From positions 6,448,001-6,512,000 of the forward strand of contig NZ_CP015098.1 in the NCBI RefSeq assembly GCF_001611795.1: a stretch of 64,000 nucleotides of DNA, read 5' to 3'. Position numbers and translations under genes: made by a program. The stretch comes from Streptomyces qaidamensis (GTDB taxonomy: Bacteria; Actinomycetota; Actinomycetes; Streptomycetales; Streptomycetaceae). The first letter of the stretch is position 1. The number at the start of each line of letters is the position of its first letter. Below, piece after piece: positions 1-11,237 of the stretch. The notes under the pieces were generated by a model. That model did not search any database and was not told the DNA's origin. It saw only the letters and a program-made list of their open reading frames with translations.

Positions 1-800
1 GGCACGTCGACCGCGACGCGGGCGGCGGCGGCATGGATGGAGTCGGTGAGCAGATCGAGGGTGGCCCATGCCGGCGGCGGATCGTCCGGCCCGTCGGGTC
101 CGTCGAAGCGGATCACGGCATGGAAGTGGACGGCCCCGCGCTTCTGGTACTCGGCGACCTTGCCGAAGGAGACGCGGGACTGTTCCTTGGCAGCCTTCTG
201 TGTGAGCCCGGCTCGCTTGGCGATCTCGCGGCGCAGGTAGATCGTGAAGTAGCGCCACAGCTCGGAAGCGTGGTTGTTCCACAGCACCGCGCACGCGTAG
301 TCGTAGCCGTCGGGGTCGAGCGGGGTGCCGAGTTCGGGTGCGTCCTCGCCGTGGCGGGTGCCGCAGCGGCAGGGCCGGTTTCCGGGGCGGTTGTGGACCG
401 GGCCGAACGAGGGCGCGGTGAGGGTGGCGAAGACCCTGGGGTGGTCGCGGATGGTGTGCGGGGTGCCTTTGGCAGGGTCGCCGACGAGGCCGGCGCGGAT
501 CAGATGGTAGGTGTCGCCCGCGTAGGTCCAGGCGCAGGCCGGGCAGCGGGACGCGCGGCGGTTGCCGCAGGCGACGCGGAGCCGTCCGCCGGGCTGGGTG
601 TCGGTCGAGTAGGAGTGCAGGACCTGCCCGGTGGTGGCGTCGCGGGTGACGGTGGTGCCTTGCAGGTGGATGGGGTCGGAGCAGCCGCCGGTGCGGCGGA
701 TCTGGTCTTGGATGCGGTCGAAGCCGGGGGACCCGGCCAGCCTCAGCACGTCGGCGAGGGTGGCCGGGTCCAGGCCCGCCATGGTGGCGGTGTCGGTCAC
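1..800 (-). CDS. repSA: RepSA-type replication initiator, cut by window start
   Basis: Reading is open from a GTG at 800 to base 1, giving the first 266 residues. A Cys-rich stretch (CGNRRASRCPAC) is followed by a histidine cluster in a hydrophobic context (VHFHAVIRFDG). The second motif resembles the HUH metal-binding motif of rolling-circle initiators; the catalytic tyrosine region would lie beyond the window. In pSAM2-type elements RepSA nicks the element origin to start rolling-circle replication after excision. The GTG overlaps the TGA of the preceding 80-aa gene (GTGA), so translation is probably coupled. An in-frame ATG at 782 is an alternative start. This gene is easily missed because it has no stop in the window. 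Confidence 0.82.
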   Translation of the reverse strand, partial: MTDTATMAGLDPATLADVLRLAGSPGFDRIQDQIRRTGGCSDPIHLQGTTVTRDATTGQVLHSYSTDTQPGGRLRVACGNRRASRCPACAWTYAGDTYHLIRAGLVGDPAKGTPHTIRDHPRVFATLTAPSFGPVHNRPGNRPCRCGTRHGEDAPELGTPLDPDGYDYACAVLWNNHASELWRYFTIYLRREIAKRAGLTQKAAKEQSRVSFGKVAEYQKRGAVHFHAVIRFDGPDGPDDPPPAWATLDLLTDSIHAAAARVAVDV

Positions 801-2037: not shown

Positions 2038-2721
2038 TCAGGCGAGCTGGAGTTGGGCGGCGATGGCGTCGGCCACCGGGGCAGGCAGACCAAGCCGGGC
2101 GGACAGGGCTTCGGCGGGCATCGGTGACCCGGTGGTGGCCTGGTGGGCGTCGGCGATCTTCCGGGCGTGGTCGAGGAGCGCGGCCGGAACAGCAGGGGCA
2201 CTGGAGGCTCGCTGTGGCGGTGCCTGAGTCAGCTCGGGCGCGGTCGCCGCAGGCTCCGGGGCGGGTGAGAGGCCGGGGGCGGTTTCGGCGGTGCGGTGGA
2301 TCTCGACTTCCGGCACGGGTGGCTCGTCGTCCACAGGCTGTGTCGAAGGGGCGGGCGGTTCGGCAGGGGTGTGGACCAGGAGGGTCCCGCCGAGGAAGGC
2401 CAGCGCGGGCCAGCCAGCGACGAGGATGCGCAGCCACGCAGGCACGTCCTGCAGGTCGAGCAGGCCTGCGGTGGCGATGTTCGCGCCGAGCGACGCAGCC
2501 AGGGCGATGACGAACCAGGTCCAGGCGGAGCGGTCGCGGCGGGCTGTGCGCAGCCGGTGCCAGGCGGCGACCAGGAGCAGATCAACTGAGACCGGGTAGG
2601 CCCAGGCCTTCCAGCCTGTCTGTCCGGCAGCTTCGGCCAGGTCGTGCAGGTGGGCGAAGGACAACGCACCGGCAATGACGGCCTGGATAAGAACGGCGTC
2701 CGGGCGGATCGAGCGAGACAC
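2038..2721 (-). CDS. DUF2637-containing SpdB-like membrane protein, 227 aa
   Basis: The N-terminal half has four hydrophobic segments (roughly residues 8-25, 38-55, 67-88 and 98-115) with the AWAYPVSVDLLLVAAW pattern of the DUF2637 family. The C-terminal half is hydrophilic and Pro/Ala/Glu-rich, ending in a helical region. DUF2637 proteins are found in Streptomyces plasmids and integrative elements, where they act with the FtsK-like translocase in spreading DNA between hyphal compartments. The GTG start at 2721 has GGGAGG nine bases upstream. The 124 bases before it, after the traSA stop, hold no supported gene. Confidence 0.8.
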   Translation of the reverse strand: MSRSIRPDAVLIQAVIAGALSFAHLHDLAEAAGQTGWKAWAYPVSVDLLLVAAWHRLRTARRDRSAWTWFVIALAASLGANIATAGLLDLQDVPAWLRILVAGWPALAFLGGTLLVHTPAEPPAPSTQPVDDEPPVPEVEIHRTAETAPGLSPAPEPAATAPELTQAPPQRASSAPAVPAALLDHARKIADAHQATTGSPMPAEALSARLGLPAPVADAIAAQLQLA

Positions 2722-2845: not shown

Positions 2846-4186
2846 TTACTCGGTGACCGGGCGGGGCTTGACCAGCGATGGACCGGCCGCCGGCGCCACA
2901 GCGGGCAGGTGGGGGCGGAACGGTTCGAGGAACGGCAGGTCCGGGACCAGGTGGGCGAACTCCCGGCAGACGGATACCACTTCGTCCCGCGAGGTTTCCG
3001 GGGTGCGGATCTTCGACCAGCCGCCCGAGGGGTCCGCCGCGACAGCGGTTCCGGGGCGGTTCATGGGGATCAGGCTCGCTGCCGGGACCGCGTCCGGGGC
3101 CACGTCCGCCAGGCCCATTTCGGCGGTCTGCTTGTCATTGACGCGGTGCACCACACGGCCAGTGAGCTGAGCACGGAGCATGGTGGCACCCTTGCCCAGG
3201 TCGGAGCCGAAGCGCTGCCCGCAGATCTCCAGATGGATACCGATGGCGCGGGCCATCTGTGCGAGCCGGATCAACGCGGTCACGATCCGTTCCCGGCGCT
3301 CCTCATCCTTCTTGGAGGAGATCAGGAACAGTTCCGCCACCTCGTCGACCAGCACGACCACCGGCACCGGCCGCACCTCGTCGGGCAGCTCCCACAGGTC
3401 CGAGACGCCATGACGGCTCAGCAGGTCGAAGCGGTCCTCCATCTCCGCGACCAGCACGCCGAGCAGTGAGGCGGCATCGTCGGGGGTGGTGACCAGCGCC
3501 GACAGCCGGGGCGCGAACGCGGACTGTTCCACCCCGCGCTTGCAGTCGATGCCGATCAGGGCCACCGGCAGTTGCGCCAGACCCTTGATCAGGTTGCGCT
3601 GATACATGGACTTGCCCGAGTGGTTCGCGCCGAGGGTGAGCGCCATCGGGGCCTTGCGGTAGTCCCGCTCGAACGCGGTCCCGTCCTCGCGCACCGCGAC
3701 CGGCACGGCCATGTCGTGCGGGCGGGCCTTGCGCGGCATCCGCACCCGGCGCAGCACGTCATAGCCGGTCATCCGCAGTTCGACGAAACCGGGCTTCGTC
3801 TCGACCACGCTCACCGAGTGGACTCCCCAGGCGTGCCGGAGTCGCTCCGAGGAGGCCATCACATCCGCGGGCTCCAGGCCGGCGGGAAGCCGCAGGGTGA
3901 CCCGCAGCCCGGTCGAGGTGCCGCGTACTCGGCGGATCTTCGGCGGGACCGGCTGCACCTCACGGCGGGCCACGTTGCGGGTCATGAACGCCCGCAGACC
4001 CGACGGGTGCACCGTCAGTCCACACACGTCCATCGTCGAGCGGTACGAGAGGGTGAAGCGTCCCCAGGTGACCGGCATCCCGACCAGCGACCAGTACACG
4101 CGCGGCGCACGCACCTTCGCGTAGCCGAGACCACCGGCGCCCGCTAAGGCACCCGTGGCCTCCAGCCACATCGTCAGGTCGCTCAT
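2846..4186 (-). CDS. traSA: FtsK/SpoIIIE-type DNA translocase TraSA
   Basis: A 446-aa P-loop ATPase of the FtsK/SpoIIIE type used by mycelial actinomycetes to move double-stranded DNA between cells during conjugation. Residues 180-200 carry the Walker A motif (GANHSGKS, 186-193) and VVVLVDE at 276-282 is Walker B. The N-terminal 170 residues form the element-specific part with a weak hydrophobic stretch for membrane contact. The length is usual for pSAM2-type transfer proteins. The gene starts two bases after the stop of the 109-aa gene and should be transcribed with it from the divergent promoter region at 4519-4663. Confidence 0.9.
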   Translation of the reverse strand: MSDLTMWLEATGALAGAGGLGYAKVRAPRVYWSLVGMPVTWGRFTLSYRSTMDVCGLTVHPSGLRAFMTRNVARREVQPVPPKIRRVRGTSTGLRVTLRLPAGLEPADVMASSERLRHAWGVHSVSVVETKPGFVELRMTGYDVLRRVRMPRKARPHDMAVPVAVREDGTAFERDYRKAPMALTLGANHSGKSMYQRNLIKGLAQLPVALIGIDCKRGVEQSAFAPRLSALVTTPDDAASLLGVLVAEMEDRFDLLSRHGVSDLWELPDEVRPVPVVVLVDEVAELFLISSKKDEERRERIVTALIRLAQMARAIGIHLEICGQRFGSDLGKGATMLRAQLTGRVVHRVNDKQTAEMGLADVAPDAVPAASLIPMNRPGTAVAADPSGGWSKIRTPETSRDEVVSVCREFAHLVPDLPFLEPFRPHLPAVAPAAGPSLVKPRPVTE

Positions 4187-4577: not shown

Positions 4578-4629
4578 GTCCTAGGACTGCGGCGGGCTTG
4601 GCAAGACTGTGGCACGCAGTCCTAGGACT
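4578..4629. promoter_or_regulatory. Two palindromic operators in divergent transfer/korSA promoter region
   Basis: GTCCTAGGAC occurs at 4578-4587 and again at 4619-4628. The second copy sits in a perfect 14-bp palindrome, CAGTCCTAGGACTG (4617-4630). Centres are 41 bp apart, about four helical turns. Between them lies TTGGCAA, which could supply a -35-like element to either side, and the TAGGAC within each palindrome could act as the -10 for each direction, though spacers of 15 and 19 are not ideal. The position between the KorSA-like gene and the transfer operon suggests binding sites of that repressor, controlling both units. Confidence 0.65.
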
Positions 4630-4663
4630 GTGCTTGACTGGAGGTGTCGAGAGGAGTCATGCA

Positions 4664-5458
4664 ATGACGCCCAAGTGGCGGGAGCTGGCGGACAAGCTGG
4701 CTGAACAGGTCAAGAGGGGTGAGTACGCGCCCGGCCAGCAGCTCCCGCAGATCAGGGAGTTGGTCGCAGCGGGTGAGGGCTCCAAGTCCACCGTCCACCA
4801 GGCGTACAAGGCTCTTGAGGCAGAGGGCCTGGTGACGTCTTCTCGCGGTCACGGAACCGTGGTGCGGGAGCGAGTGCCTCTGAAGCGTCTCGGCATCGCC
4901 AGGTACGACAAGGCGAAGTGGCGGGACGGCGACGAGGTCGCCTTCATCGCGGACCGTGTGGCTTCCGGACGGGGGTACCGGCGGAACGAGCAGACCCAGA
5001 CGGTCACTCGCGTTGTAGCGCCACCAGAGGTGGCGGCCGCACATGGGCTGCCGGAAGGCGCCGAGGTCTACGCCCGCGCGCGACTGGTCAAGGAAGGCGA
5101 CCAGCCGACACACACGCTGACCAGCTACTACCGTCCCGAGCATGTTGAGGGAACACGCCTGGTGGATCCCACGCCGGGGCCCGCCGGCCGAGGCGGCGGA
5201 TTTCGCGTGCTGTACGACGCGGGTTACGAGATCGATCACATGAGGGAGCGACTCTTTGCCCGTGCTGCTACACCGGACGAGGTGAAGCAGTTGCAGCTAC
5301 CGCCGGGCGAACCCGTCGTCGAGTTGCACCGGACGACGTACACGGCCGCGGGCACCGTCGTGGAATTCGCCGTTGGGGTCCACGCGGCATCCCGCTTCGC
5401 ATGGGAGTACGACTTCAAGGTGCCCGACTCGGCCAAGGACAGGAAGGGGCAGCAGTGA
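4664..5458 (+). CDS. korSA: KorSA-like GntR-family repressor
   Basis: A 264-aa GntR/HutC-type regulator. Residues 1-70 form the winged helix-turn-helix (GQQLPQIRELVAAGEGSKSTVHQAYKALEAEGLV), and the rest is a UTRA-type effector domain (RERLFARAATPDEVKQLQLPPGEPVVELHRTTYT). In pSAM2 the related KorSA silences transfer and replication genes. The ATG at 4664 has GAGGAG at good distance. A longer TTG-initiated reading is possible but would run through the second palindrome. The gene ends in a GTGA overlap with a YdcF-like gene. Two palindromes directly upstream suggest autorepression. Confidence 0.85.
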   Translation: MTPKWRELADKLAEQVKRGEYAPGQQLPQIRELVAAGEGSKSTVHQAYKALEAEGLVTSSRGHGTVVRERVPLKRLGIARYDKAKWRDGDEVAFIADRVASGRGYRRNEQTQTVTRVVAPPEVAAAHGLPEGAEVYARARLVKEGDQPTHTLTSYYRPEHVEGTRLVDPTPGPAGRGGGFRVLYDAGYEIDHMRERLFARAATPDEVKQLQLPPGEPVVELHRTTYTAAGTVVEFAVGVHAASRFAWEYDFKVPDSAKDRKGQQ

Positions 5459-6891: not shown

Positions 6892-7407
6892 ATGCCGTCG
6901 ATGCGGGCGGTGTTGGAAGCGCGGCGGAAGTCCGCGGCGGTGCGGGTGGAGGAACTCGAAGCCGAGCTGGAGCGGGTGCGGGCGGCTCTGGCGGACGCGG
7001 AAGAGGCGCTCAGGCGCCGGGTGATCGGCCTGGAGCAGTATCTGGAGGCACTGGCCGAGGCGGATGCGCCCGCCGAAGTGATCGGCGGGGTGTCACAGCG
7101 GAAGCCGGTGGGACCGCGCCGGGCGGTGCCTCACCGGCAGAACGCCACCGGAACAGAGGAGTTGTCGCCGGACTATCAGGCGTTGATGGCCGCCGCGGTG
7201 GAAGCAGGAGCCGATGGGCTGGGTGCCCGGCGGGCAGCGGTGGTGCTGGGCTGGGACAGCGCCTCCGCCTCCCGTGTCGAGGGAGCGAGGGCCCGGCTGA
7301 AGCGGCTGGTGGAACGGGGCTGGCTGGTCGAGGAGAAGCCGGGAAGGTTCAAGCCGCCGATACCGGAACAGGTTCCTGGTGCTGGACGGTCAGGCGGCGG
7401 CTCATGA
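6892..7407 (+). CDS. Coiled-coil protein of unknown function, 3' end altered by IS
   Basis: A 171-aa protein. Residues 5-60 form a strong Glu/Arg/Ala heptad coiled coil (EELEAELERVRAALADAEEA), followed by a Pro-containing linker and a C-terminal region (YQALMAAAVEAGADGLGARRAAVVLGWDSASASRVEGARARLKRLVERGWLVEEKPGRF) with the look of a winged helix-turn-helix. Such proteins are scattered in Streptomyces genomes, often near transposases. The last 20 or so codons overlap the 3' end of the convergent transposase gene by 59 bases, so the natural C-terminus was probably replaced when the element inserted. The ATG at 6892 has a GGGGGTGG upstream; in-frame alternatives are 6874 and 6901. Confidence 0.6.
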   Translation: MPSMRAVLEARRKSAAVRVEELEAELERVRAALADAEEALRRRVIGLEQYLEALAEADAPAEVIGGVSQRKPVGPRRAVPHRQNATGTEELSPDYQALMAAAVEAGADGLGARRAAVVLGWDSASASRVEGARARLKRLVERGWLVEEKPGRFKPPIPEQVPGAGRSGGGS

Positions 7408-8281
7408 GCATGGTCATCGACCACAGAACGACGGCTTCGCTGGTCTCGGTGCGCCGTTCGTAGTCACGGACCAGGCGCCGGCTGCGCAGGAGCCAGGCGA
7501 AGGATCTTTCGACGACCCAGCGGCGGGGCAGGACCTGAAAACCCTGGACGTCGTCGCTGCGGCGGACGATGTCGAGGACGACTCCGAGGTGCTGGGTGGT
7601 CCAGTCGGTGAGGTGGCCGGTGTAACCGCCGTCGGCCCAGATCCGCGCCAGCCGCCGGAAGTGATTCTTCGCTGCGGGTAGCAGGACGCGGGCGGCATCC
7701 CGGTCGGTCGTGGAAGCCGGCGTGACCAGCACGGCCAGCAGGAGCCCGAGAGTGTCGGTCAGCAAGTGCCGCTTGCGCCCGTTGATCCTCTTCCCTGCGT
7801 CGAACCCCCGCGAGTGGTGAGCAACAGTGGCGTCCGCCTTCACCGACTGCGAGTCAACGACCGCCGCACTCGGCTCCTGGTCACGGCCCTCAGCCCGGCG
7901 GACGCCCTCGCGCAGCCGTTCATGCAGCTCGGCCACCAGCCCCGTATCCCGCCAGCGGGCGAAGAAGGCATACACCCGCGGCCAGGGCGGGAAGTCGGAC
8001 GGCATCGCCCGCCATTTGATGCCGTTGTCAACGAGATAGCGCACCGCGTCGATCATCTGCCGGTGGCAGTAGCCCTCCGGCCGCCCGCCCCGGCCCGCCA
8101 GCCATCCCGGCACCGGCAACAGATCCCGCACCAGAGCCCACTCGGCATCGCTCATGTCCGAGCCATACCGAGGCCGACGCTCTGGCCGGTCGGCCGCGTT
8201 CCCGAACCGATGGGCGAGACAGTCACACCTGGGAGTGGCCGGACTGGACCCGGCAACCACGACCACGCGACACTTCGACAA
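7349..8281 (-). CDS. IS5-family DDE transposase
   Basis: Up to 310 residues. It shows the IS5-type N-terminal block (YGSDMSDAEWALVRDLLPVPG, DAVRYLVDNGIKWRAMPSDFPPW) and the DDE catalytic triad: first Asp in AAVVDSQSVKA, second in IWADGGYTGH, and Glu in WVVERSFAWLLRSRRLVRDYE. The arginine cluster after the Glu is also typical. The frame is open throughout, so the enzyme may be active. The start is unclear: a TTG at 8281, GTGs at about 8260-8266 or the ATG at 8155 are possible, but the conserved block lies before that ATG, so a start upstream of it is needed. Confidence 0.85.
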   Translation of the reverse strand: MSKCRVVVVAGSSPATPRCDCLAHRFGNAADRPERRPRYGSDMSDAEWALVRDLLPVPGWLAGRGGRPEGYCHRQMIDAVRYLVDNGIKWRAMPSDFPPWPRVYAFFARWRDTGLVAELHERLREGVRRAEGRDQEPSAAVVDSQSVKADATVAHHSRGFDAGKRINGRKRHLLTDTLGLLLAVLVTPASTTDRDAARVLLPAAKNHFRRLARIWADGGYTGHLTDWTTQHLGVVLDIVRRSDDVQGFQVLPRRWVVERSFAWLLRSRRLVRDYERRTETSEAVVLWSMTMLMSRRLTVQHQEPVPVSAA

Positions 8282-8335: not shown

Positions 8336-8434
8336 TCCTTCATGCCCCCACGTCGGCCAACTCACCCGATCCAGCGCGCTGTTCGAAGCAGACCGAGCAC
8401 ACGAACGGATAGAGAACGGCCAGTTAGGCAGCCA

Positions 8435-8545
8435 CTTTGGGGCGAGCCTCTAAGATCATGGCCCCAACGTCGTGCTTTAGCGGGCAGGTCCACAGACTGC
8501 CCGACTCGCCGGAAGCTTACGGGGCCATGATCACTCGCCCCAAAG
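8435..8545. repeat. 111-bp nested inverted repeat (MITE-like or structured RNA)
   Basis: CTTTGGGGCGAG (8435-8446) pairs with CTCGCCCCAAAG (8534-8545), and GATCATGGCCCC (8454-8465) pairs with GGGGCCATGATC (8521-8532). The left arm has seven and the right arm one unpaired base between the two stems. The apical part contains a further hairpin, CGGGCAG (8481-8487) with CTGCCCG (8497-8503). The whole lies between the insertion sequence and the HEPN gene, in a stretch (8282-8612) with no supported protein gene. It could be a miniature inverted-repeat element, a bidirectional terminator or a structured RNA. Confidence 0.75.
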
Positions 8546-8612
8546 CAGCTCCAGCCCAAAGCCGCTCCGCCGACCTGGCTCTATGCGCCCTGCCTGCATT
8601 CTTGCAGAAGCT

Positions 8613-9872
8613 TCACTCGCTTGACATGAGTTTGGCTTGCACGTCATCCCGCCACTTTTGAGACTGTCGCAACCAGGAGTCTTCGTGCGGTGCAACGTCC
8701 GACGAGAAGTGTTGCATGAAGCTGCACCATTTATTGCGCCGCCTTAGTCCTTCCTCTCCCAAAAATAGCAGGGCAGTCCTCGGGGAACTTTTCCTCTTGG
8801 CGGCGAGGCGATCCCAGCAGTATGAGGATAGCGAATGTACTGATTCCAGAGCGGTCTGCGCCTCGAGACGGGTGGGGCTATACCCGCCGTGGACTACTCT
8901 GTGGCGCAGTCGGTAACACCGATGAAACCATTCGGCTACCGGCGTGTTCCCGTCCAGAGTCCACTTTCCTCCGAGAAGGCTTGCAAACTGCGACTTGACT
9001 CGCCGTGCTAGCCGCCCTTCGGCGAAAACCTCCGCCACGTCTTCTGCATCGTTCCCTGCCTCCCATAGCAGAGTTGCCAAGAGGGAGTCGAGTAGTACTT
9101 CGCTGGCGGTATTACTCAACGTCACAGCCGCGCCATACTGGCCTTCGATCTTCAGTGCCCTGTGGGCCTCGACGAATCGCTCCCGCCAAACGAAGAGCGG
9201 GGCTCCTGCATGCCTGAGATTTTCAAAGAACTCTAGGCGACCTATGTTCTCCTGGCTTATCTCCGGCCCGTCCGTAACGTCTGGAATGTTGACGTGATCC
9301 AGCATGAGGGCGTTGACGGGACCCCACTCAGAGGAATCCAGAGAGAATCCTTCTTCTTCTTGCGTCATAACGACTGATTGAGTCGTTTGGAATGGAATGA
9401 AGATGTCCAGCAGCTCATACGAGGGGAGTGTGCAGGGAACCTCAAAAGCCGCCCTGTATGCGCGGATTACTTCCTGTAGCGTATAGATGCATCTATTTAG
9501 GGCGTCATGTTCAATGGGGACGTCTTGGGGGGACATCCATTCGTCATCTGATGCAATTTCGGCGTTGCTTAGAGTGGTCGCGATGACGGTGGTGTAATTG
9601 CCATCTAGATTCGACGGCATGCTCTCGCTGTCGTCATCTGCTACTTGTCCGAGACGTTTAATTGCTTCGGCCGCAGAGGAGAATGAACCGTGGCGCCTTG
9701 ATGTGTTACGCGATTGCATGAATCGCAGATGAACGAAAAGGTGATTCATTGATCGGGAGGCATACGGCTCAGGGACTACGGGTGCACCCTTGTAGATGTA
9801 TCCATCAGGTACGGGGAAGGGGTCGGGCAGTGTAATGAAAAAGCGAACTAGCGATCGATTGTTGTCTGGCAT
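8613..9872 (-). CDS. HEPN-domain protein (ApeA-like), foreign base composition
   Basis: A 419-aa protein starting at the ATG at 9872, with AGAGGAG at good spacing. The C-terminal part (about 235-350) is helical, with HEPN features: a helix EAHRALKIEGQYGAAVTLSNTASEVLLDSLLA and the motif RLRHRVVHGGY, where Arg323-His324-x3-His328 matches the Rx4-6H ribonuclease signature with a polar residue after Arg. This arrangement resembles HEPN domains of ApeA-type anti-phage proteins. The N-terminal 200 residues are not recognised. G+C is far below that of its neighbours (27 of 60 bases at 9361-9420), which indicates recent transfer. The upstream extension of this frame across rlmN is not coding. Confidence 0.72.
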   Translation of the reverse strand: MPDNNRSLVRFFITLPDPFPVPDGYIYKGAPVVPEPYASRSMNHLFVHLRFMQSRNTSRRHGSFSSAAEAIKRLGQVADDDSESMPSNLDGNYTTVIATTLSNAEIASDDEWMSPQDVPIEHDALNRCIYTLQEVIRAYRAAFEVPCTLPSYELLDIFIPFQTTQSVVMTQEEEGFSLDSSEWGPVNALMLDHVNIPDVTDGPEISQENIGRLEFFENLRHAGAPLFVWRERFVEAHRALKIEGQYGAAVTLSNTASEVLLDSLLATLLWEAGNDAEDVAEVFAEGRLARRVKSQFASLLGGKWTLDGNTPVAEWFHRCYRLRHRVVHGGYSPTRLEAQTALESVHSLSSYCWDRLAAKRKSSPRTALLFLGEEGLRRRNKWCSFMQHFSSDVAPHEDSWLRQSQKWRDDVQAKLMSSE

Positions 9873-10130
9873 CAACACTCCTCTACCTTTGTTTGCTGAG
9901 ATGCTGTCACGCAGGTCACTTTCGGCGCACGCGAATTCCGCGTTGCCTTGCGTGTGAAGCTGCTGGACTTGACTCCTGTTCTCGCGGGACGGTGAGTGTG
10001 CGAGGCGGCGCCTGGGCCGTCCCTGGGCCGTCCGAAGCCGACCAACGCCGACAGACGGCACCCACAGGTGACCACCCCCACCCCACTCTGGCCTGGGCAA
10101 CCGGAGTTGATCTGCCACACTGGATGGGTT

Positions 10131-11237
10131 ATGCCTGCACCCGGAGAACTCACTTTCGTAGCCCCCCGCGGAGCCAAGAAGCCGCCGCGGCATCTCGCCG
10201 ATCTCACTCCTGCCGAGCGCAAGGAGGCCGTTGCCGCTGTCGGGGAGAAGCCGTTTCGTGCCAAGCAGCTCTCGCAGCACTACTTCGCGCGGTACGCGCA
10301 TGATCCGGAGCAGTGGACCGATATTCCGGCCGGTGCCCGGGGGCGGCTGCAGGAGGCGCTGCTGCCCGAGCTGATGACCGTCGTGCGGCATCTGTCGACC
10401 GACCAGGGCACCACCCGCAAGACGCTGTGGCGGCTGTTCGACGGGACGCTCGTCGAGTCCGTGCTGATGCGCTACCCGGACCGGGTCACCATGTGCATCA
10501 GTTCCCAGGCCGGGTGCGGGATGAACTGCCCGTTCTGCGCGACCGGGCAGGCGGGTCTCGACCGGAATCTGTCCACCGCCGAGATCGTCCATCAGATCGT
10601 GGACGGCATGCGGGCGCTGCGCGACGGGGAGGTCCCCGGCGGTCCCGCGCGGCTCAGCAACATCGTCTTCATGGGCATGGGCGAGCCGCTCGCCAACTAC
10701 AACCGGGTCATCGGATCCATCCGGCGGCTCACCGACCCCGAGCCCGACGGGCTGGGGCTCTCGCAGCGCGGCATCACCGTCTCGACGGTCGGGCTCGTCC
10801 CGGCCGTCCACCGGTTCGCCGACGAGGGCTTCAAGTGCCGCCTCGCCATCTCGCTGCACGCCCCCGACGACGAGCTGCGCGACACGCTCGTGCCGGTGAA
10901 CACGCGCTGGAAGGTCCGGGAGGTGCTGGACGCCGGCTTCGAGTACAGCGCCAAGTCCGGGCGCCGGCTGTCCATCGAGTACGCCCTGATCCGGGACATC
11001 AACGACCAGGCCTGGCGGGGTGACCGGCTCGGGCGGCTGCTCAAGGGCAAGCCCGTGCACGTGAACCTGATCCCGCTGAACCCGACGCCCGGCTCCAAGT
11101 GGACCGCCTCCAGGCCCGAGGACGAGAAGGCGTTCGTGGAGGCGATCGCCGCTCATGGTGTGCCGGTGACGATCCGGGACACCCGTGGTCAGGAGATCGA
11201 CGGGGCGTGTGGTCAGCTAGCGGCCACCGAACGGTAG
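10131..11237 (+). CDS. rlmN: 23S rRNA / tRNA A37 C2-methyltransferase RlmN
   Basis: A 368-aa radical SAM enzyme that methylates C2 of A2503 in 23S rRNA and A37 in some tRNAs. The cluster-binding motif CGMNCPFC gives Cys129, Cys133 and Cys136, and the Cys near the C-terminus (Cys360, in GACGQL) corresponds to the residue that is transiently methylated. GMGEPLANY and STVGLVP are further family marks. The ATG at 10131 is the first Met before the conserved N-terminus ([20 protein letters not shown]); no clear ribosome-binding site precedes it, so the mRNA may be leaderless or nearly so. This gene marks the return to core chromosome. Confidence 0.95.

Follow-up and report, generated by a model that had tools for sequence, protein, structure and literature searches.

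A low-GC gene inside an integrated element

The DNA analysed here (the window, 64 kb) covers positions 6448001-6512000 of a one-contig genome of 9.08 Mb. On its minus strand, at 8613..9872, lies an open reading frame for a protein of 419 aa (ATG at 9872, stop at 8613), which is present once in the genome and encodes a likely HEPN-type domain. The gene is situated inside a pSAM2-type AICE of approximately 12.3 kb, which is inserted at the 5′ end of rlmN and extends from about window position -2113 to 10140. The AICE gene set comprises a tyrosine integrase adjoining the left end, an HTH_17 protein assigned as excisionase by this domain and its position, and the replication initiator RepSA (minus strand; 1..800 for the part in the window, L060:2412-3800 for the full gene; PF20199, E 9e-155). 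Domain matches further identified a DUF2637 protein (2038..2721, minus strand), an FtsK/SpoIIIE-type transfer protein (Tra; 2846..4186, minus strand; PF01580, E 1.2e-30) and a GntR-UTRA regulator (4598..5458, plus strand), which by its position we take to be KorSA-like. An IS5-type transposase (7349..8281, minus strand), probably a later insertion, lies between this backbone and a conserved structured element of 152 nt (the hairpin; 8425..8576). No IS5-type transposase was found between DUF218 and the hairpin in locus L125. The DNA to the left of the hairpin in the window, on the IS5 side, departs from the consensus of other loci. The hairpin, located 36 bp after the HEPN stop codon, marks the slot described below; the HEPN gene lies between the hairpin and attR, and no other gene separates it from attR.

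The right end of the element is defined by the 11-nt direct repeat CCCGGAGAACT (attR core; 10140..10150) inside the start of rlmN (10131..11237, plus strand). This attachment gene encodes a 23S rRNA methyltransferase, with Pfam matches to RlmN_N and Radical_SAM on the open reading frame 9996-11237. The left copy of the repeat is located outside the window at genome positions 6445877-6445887 (L060:877-887). Two TGGGCCGTC repeats at 10013..10032 (starting at 10013 and 10024) are found also beside the left end (window -2041 and -2030) and are probable integrase arm sites. The left end of the element repeats the promoter and the start of rlmN, and after insertion rlmN may be expressed from element DNA. 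The start supplied by the element reads MPAPGEL, compared with MPKPGEL at the left copy (10131-10150 and window -2174 to -2112, respectively). In three relatives, the region upstream of rlmN was contiguous in one genome (G780) and interrupted by remnants in the other two (G786 and G784). A tRNA as attachment site was rejected, as none was found in the window and a tRNA scan at lowered threshold gave noise only. The rlmN insertion site was already known, because an AICE in rlmN with 11-nt repeats is reported in PMC9513070. By its description there, AICE03 of strain RLB3-6 resembles the present element in both the rlmN insertion and the 11-nt direct repeats. The diversity of AICE cargo and the existence of phage-resistance cargo are likewise in print in that paper.

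The G+C content of the HEPN gene amounts to 54.6% versus a window mean of 70.9% (sd 3.9), the lowest value among 1,260-bp windows stepped every 100 bp through the 64 kb, and the line 9361-9420 has 45% G+C. The original prediction of a 419-aa gene of foreign composition in GC-rich surroundings, carried as cargo by a mobile element, is borne out by these data. It had placed the gene at the edge of an integrative element; the gene does adjoin attR, but the wording understated the case, as the gene lies inside the AICE. The low-GC cargo unit as a whole is bounded by the hairpin on the left and the arm repeats on the right (8577..10010; 1,434 bp, 55.2% GC), its right boundary having been set from 13 other loci with the same arm-repeat sequence, and no gene besides the HEPN gene was recognised within it. 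In a comparison with a 68%-identical relative, pN was 0.205 and pS 0.763, with silent sites saturated; amino-acid changes were far rarer than silent ones. A related AICE in S. antibioticus DSM 40234 (RepSA 71% and int 62% identical) carries a 57%-identical HEPN homologue at the corresponding end, remote from the integrase. Genome G891 contains a backbone of about 90% identity (repSA 92%, FtsK 89%, GntR 91%) with the same hairpin and no HEPN gene in the stretch examined.

The candidate HEPN domain and its relatives

The HEPN region covers approximately residues 222-367 and is preceded by about 220 N-terminal residues without a recognised domain. As originally noted, the protein contains an Rx4H motif (R323-H324-R-V-V-H328). 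In an alignment of 18 proteins, the 419-aa protein included, A236, E258, R323, H328, G330 and P364 were invariant; judged from this alignment, the motif is beyond chance, with R and H retained in 18/18. The residue after the arginine was H in nine proteins, N in eight and G in one, i.e. polar in 17/18. According to PMC3710099, HEPN domains carry Rx4-6H where helix 3 ends and a conserved acidic residue within helix 2, and the residue after R is polar, mostly N, D or H. HEPN fragments from three loci (L020-L022) were excluded from the family alignments. Four of the 18 proteins are shorter and display a zinc-ribbon-like N-terminal cysteine pattern, as judged by eye. This group (L008-L011, about 300 aa), which shares the HEPN domain, comes from another taxonomic family of Actinomycetota. 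The subfamily of the 419-aa protein has its own N-terminal domain and a conserved C-terminal tail (PRTAL..LG..GL.RR..W). Joining of the HEPN domain to different N-termini would fit a sensor-effector layout.

Pfam, NCBIfam, PADLOC, PHROGs and PDB sequences gave no significant match with the 419-aa protein alone: none of 5027 PADLOC models matched at E<=10, and neither HEPN profiles in general nor HEPN_Apea (PF18739) matched at E<=1. A search of its own genome yielded 0 PF18739 candidates. The N-terminal part, which the original prediction had called unrecognised, had no significant library match either (best E 0.32 and 0.37). At the level of the family, 2/11 members touched DUF4145 (best E 0.02) and one touched a Csx1/Csm6 model (E 0.0029). 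The zinc-ribbon sister group matched the HEPN family PF05168 in 4/4 members at E<=1, its best match of 22.0 bits (E 1.9e-4) lying exactly at the cut-off of 22.0, and one of its genes also passed this cut-off in a genome search; HEPN_Apea matched weakly in 4/4 (best E 0.0053). Profile comparison with hhalign connected the 14 other family members with the zinc-ribbon group at a probability of 98%. Against a PF05168 sample (21 domains from 25 loci, four having been dropped for stops or a wrong frame), the same 14 members reached a score of 27.2, which exceeded 40/40 column-shuffled decoys (best decoy 18.8), but the probability was 31% over 33 columns. The zinc-ribbon group scored 17.7 against this sample, with a probability of 2% and no better than decoys. 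Comparisons with ApeA and DUF4145 gave probabilities <1%, with samples of just two and three sequences. Hence the profile similarity of the 419-aa protein is transitive and at the limit, leading from the family through the zinc-ribbon group to PF05168. In a search of the HEPN profile against PDB sequences, zinc fingers ranked above ApeA, probably because of the R-H-x3-H pattern, and were rejected as chance matches. The HEPN-type domain of the original prediction is thus considered likely from sequence comparison, by virtue of the motif, the invariant acidic residue and a sister group at the PF05168 cut-off, and we infer a metal-independent RNase activity for it. The subfamily is new to the libraries searched, and among open-licence papers on HEPN proteins no title on it was found.

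An AlphaFold2 model of the 419-aa protein, built from three sequences, reached a mean pLDDT of 46.9. Its better part (blocks of approximately 50-73) contains helices at 225-243, 245-271, 276-284, 288-299, 311-329 and 335-362. The end of helix 311-329 holds R323 and H328, and helix 245-271 contains E258, as PMC3710099 describes for the Rx4-6H motif and the acidic residue. The helical C-terminal domain that had been predicted was recovered, at low confidence, and a check for a four-helix bundle found helices in fitting order in this poor model. A model of the domain only scored lower (mean pLDDT 44.7). Foldseek with the poor model gave no match at E<=0.001. The best VIA-align rows mixed unrelated helical folds with a single HEPN structure tied with them, 2q00 (Z 5.6, 112 aligned, rmsd 4.6), listed as HEPN in PMC3710099. 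Because both structure models are poor, the fold searches were kept out of the proof.

ApeA is a single-protein HEPN defence in which HEPN_Apea (PF18739) occurs together with ApeA-NTD1. The 419-aa protein is similar in being a single protein with a C-terminal HEPN domain of the Rx4-6H type (here Rx4H). The N-terminal domain of ApeA consists mostly of beta strands (PMC3710099), and the low-confidence model likewise has strands in the N-terminal half of the 419-aa protein. In contrast to ApeA, it lacks a PF18739 or PADLOC match, possesses another N-terminal domain and is borne by an element in actinomycetes. With HEPN domains of the PF05168/DUF4145 type it has in common Rx4H, the polar residue after R and the invariant upstream acidic residue, whereas it belongs to a subfamily of its own below all library thresholds. 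On these similarities, the protein probably belongs to a known kind of immune effector, within which it forms a new subfamily.

Searches with the protein itself detected homologues in 4/394 genomes of Streptomycetaceae and in 8/396 genomes of Actinomycetota, own genome counted in both cases; four of the eight share the C-terminal domain only. The family profile detected homologues in 6/392 genomes of the genus (own genome counted, one match containing a stop codon and one genome giving two pieces), consistent with the expectation that the gene would not be conserved throughout Streptomyces. Homologues occurred in 4/72,556 plasmid records and in 0/50,697 phage records. No relative was found on viral contigs with family set A2, three family members or one motif pattern, nor in one genome-contig search with the 419-aa protein as query. 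Within 5 kb of 14 homologue loci no partner gene was seen in common, as would fit the lone gene that had been proposed; neighbours that recurred comprised AICE genes, GntR regulators, ABC ATPases, the hairpin region and pairs that were integrase-like or without assignment. A position at the hairpin was seen only for the three closest of the homologues examined, and 13 further homologue loci showed no hairpin within the flanks covered. At the three closest loci the DNA just 3′ of the HEPN gene is near-identical, and the upstream DNA aligns badly. On the Kocuria rosea plasmid NZ_CP127860.1 (L012), a distant homologue is located beside a TIR protein, an AriAB-like ATPase and a type IIG-like enzyme, plausibly a plasmid defence island. 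Neighbours of plasmid-borne and distant homologues matched PADLOC in 6/10 cases, the ten having been chosen for their defence-like look.

The conserved hairpin and the variable cargo next to it

The hairpin folds much better than shuffled sequences (z about -5). It had no match above the gathering score in Rfam; two matches far below gathering, one of them over the hairpin, were judged to be chance. Hairpin matches were present in 139/199 Streptomyces genomes (E<=0.001, partial matches counted) and in 70/109 genomes of the order, all within one genus of five. Furthermore, 21 plasmid records matched, four of these over >=80% of the hairpin length. Twenty were Streptomyces and one was listed as Kutzneria although titled Streptomyces. 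Phage records contained no hairpin match. Across 46 distinct copies, 99.1% of cells in the stem positions pair, compared with 28-41% in slid controls, and seven pairs change on both sides versus 2.1 expected, including G-C to C-G in 16 copies and A-U to U-A in six. None of 500 shuffles reached any of five observed covariation measures; relatedness was not preserved in the shuffles, and these sequences had also served to derive the structure. Without selection acting on the fold, in RNA or in single-stranded DNA, such a pattern would be difficult to account for. Long unpaired stretches of the hairpin are as invariant as its stems.

To describe the surroundings of the hairpin, we compared 54 loci, of which 51 had been selected through the hairpin and three (the window, L023 and L024) through the HEPN gene. 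The 51 hairpin-chosen loci (L125-L135 and L137-L176) are not a random sample: 11 were hand-picked, two of them for a similar backbone and one as the second copy of the own genome, and 40 were the best hit per genome taken in list order, with two at contig starts left out. In 52 aligned loci, conservation was 0.98 at 8575 and 0.85 at 8576 and fell to approximately 0.35 beyond. AICE core genes lie to the left of the hairpin in 36/54 loci and to the right in 0/54; the left stretch examined was free of such a gene in 18/54, three of these with short flanks. In all 49 hairpin-chosen loci with both flanks, the first 1 kb to the right had a lower G+C content than the first 1 kb to the left. The right flank was below 60% GC in 43/49 of them and the left flank in 0/49. 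Mean GC was 68.1% left and 55.9% right (51 loci, two HEPN loci among these). No second hairpin was found in the stretches examined of 54/54 loci, and no bases were shared at the cargo start.

The open reading frame adjacent to the hairpin, defined as the longest of >=100 aa starting within about 900 bp, is variable: those of the 54 loci fell into 49 BLAST clusters. In this set (A6), the 419-aa protein was substituted for the read-through frame of the window, and four members with GC over 64% (L125, L142, L146 and L162) may be spurious. The frame points at the hairpin in 33/54 loci, with the stop codon within 105 bp in 27/33, and away from it in 21. Among the best 25 of 75 Pfam families, counted per family and not per member, were NACHT (3), AbiEii-type AAA (2), Mrr (2) and Schlafen AlbA_2 (2), one each of cytosine methylase, HipA, MmeI, AbiTii, SacI and Fic, and also non-defence families, e.g. 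SfLAP and PQQ_2. PADLOC, counted in the same way, matched with 245 models at E<=1e-5, of which the best 25 each match just 2/54 members. A SEFIR domain was seen in L155, a TIR-like protein one gene further in L128, and a DUF4145 (HEPN) match in the frame of L139. These data show a recurrent cargo slot beside the hairpin, with the HEPN gene as one occupant. On a circular S. formicae plasmid the order is hairpin, 200-aa open reading frame, integrase, HTH protein and rep, which locates the slot between the hairpin and the integrase/att end. A search for an empty slot with one narrow pattern found 4/150 genomes that fit, none with the hairpin. The original prediction had missed this slot. Open-licence papers yielded no account of either the hairpin or a low-GC slot; a word search of PMC9513070 and PMC3218068 returned neither, and the words hairpin and GC content are absent from the main text of PMC9513070.

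Possible functions of the protein and the hairpin

The original interpretation was partly supported. We regard it as probable, though with considerable doubt, that the 419-aa protein acts as a lone HEPN protein, most likely a metal-independent abortive-infection RNase, carried as single-gene cargo of the pSAM2-type AICE in rlmN within the recurrent slot. Its N-terminal domain would sense infection or a rival element, and the HEPN domain would then cleave RNA and stop growth, as in other HEPN effectors. Alternatively, the protein might serve the element, by excluding or disabling rival AICEs and plasmids or as a maintenance toxin. Homologues in bacterial genomes and plasmids and none in the phage collection speak for such a role, as do the position of the gene next to att in an AICE and the 5-10 conjugative elements per strain with toxin-antitoxin cargo reported in PMC9513070; but no common neighbour such as an antitoxin was seen, and the slot also carries restriction and methylase genes, directed at a wide range of invaders, leaving this role rather unlikely. 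Still less probable, and in our view improbable, is a HEPN domain without catalytic function, serving in RNA binding or as a structural module, or a gene for an ordinary RNA-processing enzyme that plays no part in defence. PMC3710099 regards HEPN domains that lack conserved charged residues as binding domains, and PMC9513070 classes about one third of the AICE cargo as hypothetical and describes decay of many cargo genes; yet invariance of R and H throughout the alignment would be unexpected for a dead site, and the patchy distribution in the genus argues against housekeeping.

For the hairpin, its structure, the invariant unpaired stretches, the constant backbone side, its presence on AICE-like plasmids and its near-restriction to one genus suggest that it serves the element in cis, most likely as the single-strand origin of AICE rolling-circle replication. 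Single-strand origins are host-specific, and genes beside them have been proposed to move between rolling-circle plasmids (PMC5037232). A working single-strand origin was identified in an ICE (PMC4595007), and Streptomyces rolling-circle plasmids have such origins (PMC3583192, PMC4170104). Cargo would be exchanged between the hairpin and the att site. A doubtful alternative is a dedicated docking or exchange site that swaps cargo units by a specific mechanism, integron-like in effect. The sharp end of conservation at 8576/8577, the stop codons close to the hairpin in most hairpin-facing frames, the backbone genes on one constant side where seen and the earlier case of rolling-circle plasmids, in which genes move between the two origins (PMC5037232), are compatible with it. 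However, any conserved functional element next to variable DNA appears sharp, the narrow pattern found no empty slot, and the single hairpin, the mixed cargo orientation (33 and 21) and the lack of shared bases at the cargo start all count against it. We hold equally tentatively the extended form of this idea, that single low-GC defence units (restriction enzymes, NACHT, AbiTii, HEPN and numerous unknown families) are swapped precisely between the hairpin as docking site and the att site while the AICE replicates by rolling circle or integrates, as a circulating bank of immune genes in which the HEPN protein is a new single-gene abortive-infection RNase. A transfer site (clt) bound by the FtsK-like Tra, or a transcription terminator, next to an insertion-tolerant region is unlikely. 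The hairpin is strong and lies near tra and regulator genes, and according to PMC9513070 a clt is not known for pSAM2; but the invariant unpaired stretches are unneeded by a terminator, and the title of a paper cited in PMC9513070 names direct repeats as essential for clt, none of which were seen in the hairpin by eye.

Two further candidates for the hairpin were considered. A toxin-ncRNA pair, with the hairpin as partner RNA of the HEPN gene, was rejected because the hairpin is found in 139 of 199 genomes compared with 6 of 392 for the HEPN family, and because the nearest frame belongs to this family in 0/51 hairpin-chosen loci. A MITE-like passenger was considered less fitting, given that AICE core genes, where seen in the loci compared, occupy the left side of the hairpin and never the right, and that copies reside on AICE-like plasmids.

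Integron gene cassettes are single genes next to a structured site, each with its own attC and in fixed orientation. The slot resembles them in that single genes adjoin a structured site. It differs in having one hairpin per stretch examined, on the backbone side, and frames in both orientations. In the staphylococcal DSO-gene-SSO arrangement (qacC, lnuA; PMC5037232), a single gene beside a hairpin is likewise thought to be mobile without a transposase. Unlike that arrangement, the slot has a putative SSO, highly diverse and mostly low-GC cargo, and an att site at the other side.

The main value of the finding lies in the slot, whose occupants differ per element, some with defence domains and many unrecognised. 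As the 152-nt marker can be found by plain sequence search, it offers a guilt-by-location method for new anti-phage genes, applicable in Streptomyces, the main antibiotic producers. The slot also raises the testable question of single-gene exchange between mobile elements without a transposase; if the hairpin were a docking site, the genus would possess a circulating bank of immune genes.

A second hairpin locus in the own genome (3875041-3875190; L127:6041-6187) is accompanied by AICE genes. There the hairpin is followed by a 314-aa open reading frame (54.8% GC), probably the AbiTii match, and then by one of 463 aa (52.9% GC). Throughout the slot loci, cargo is mostly about 55% GC beside backbones of about 68%, despite unrelated genes. 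Lsr2 is an AT-binding silencing protein, and silencing by a protein of this kind might favour low-GC cargo.
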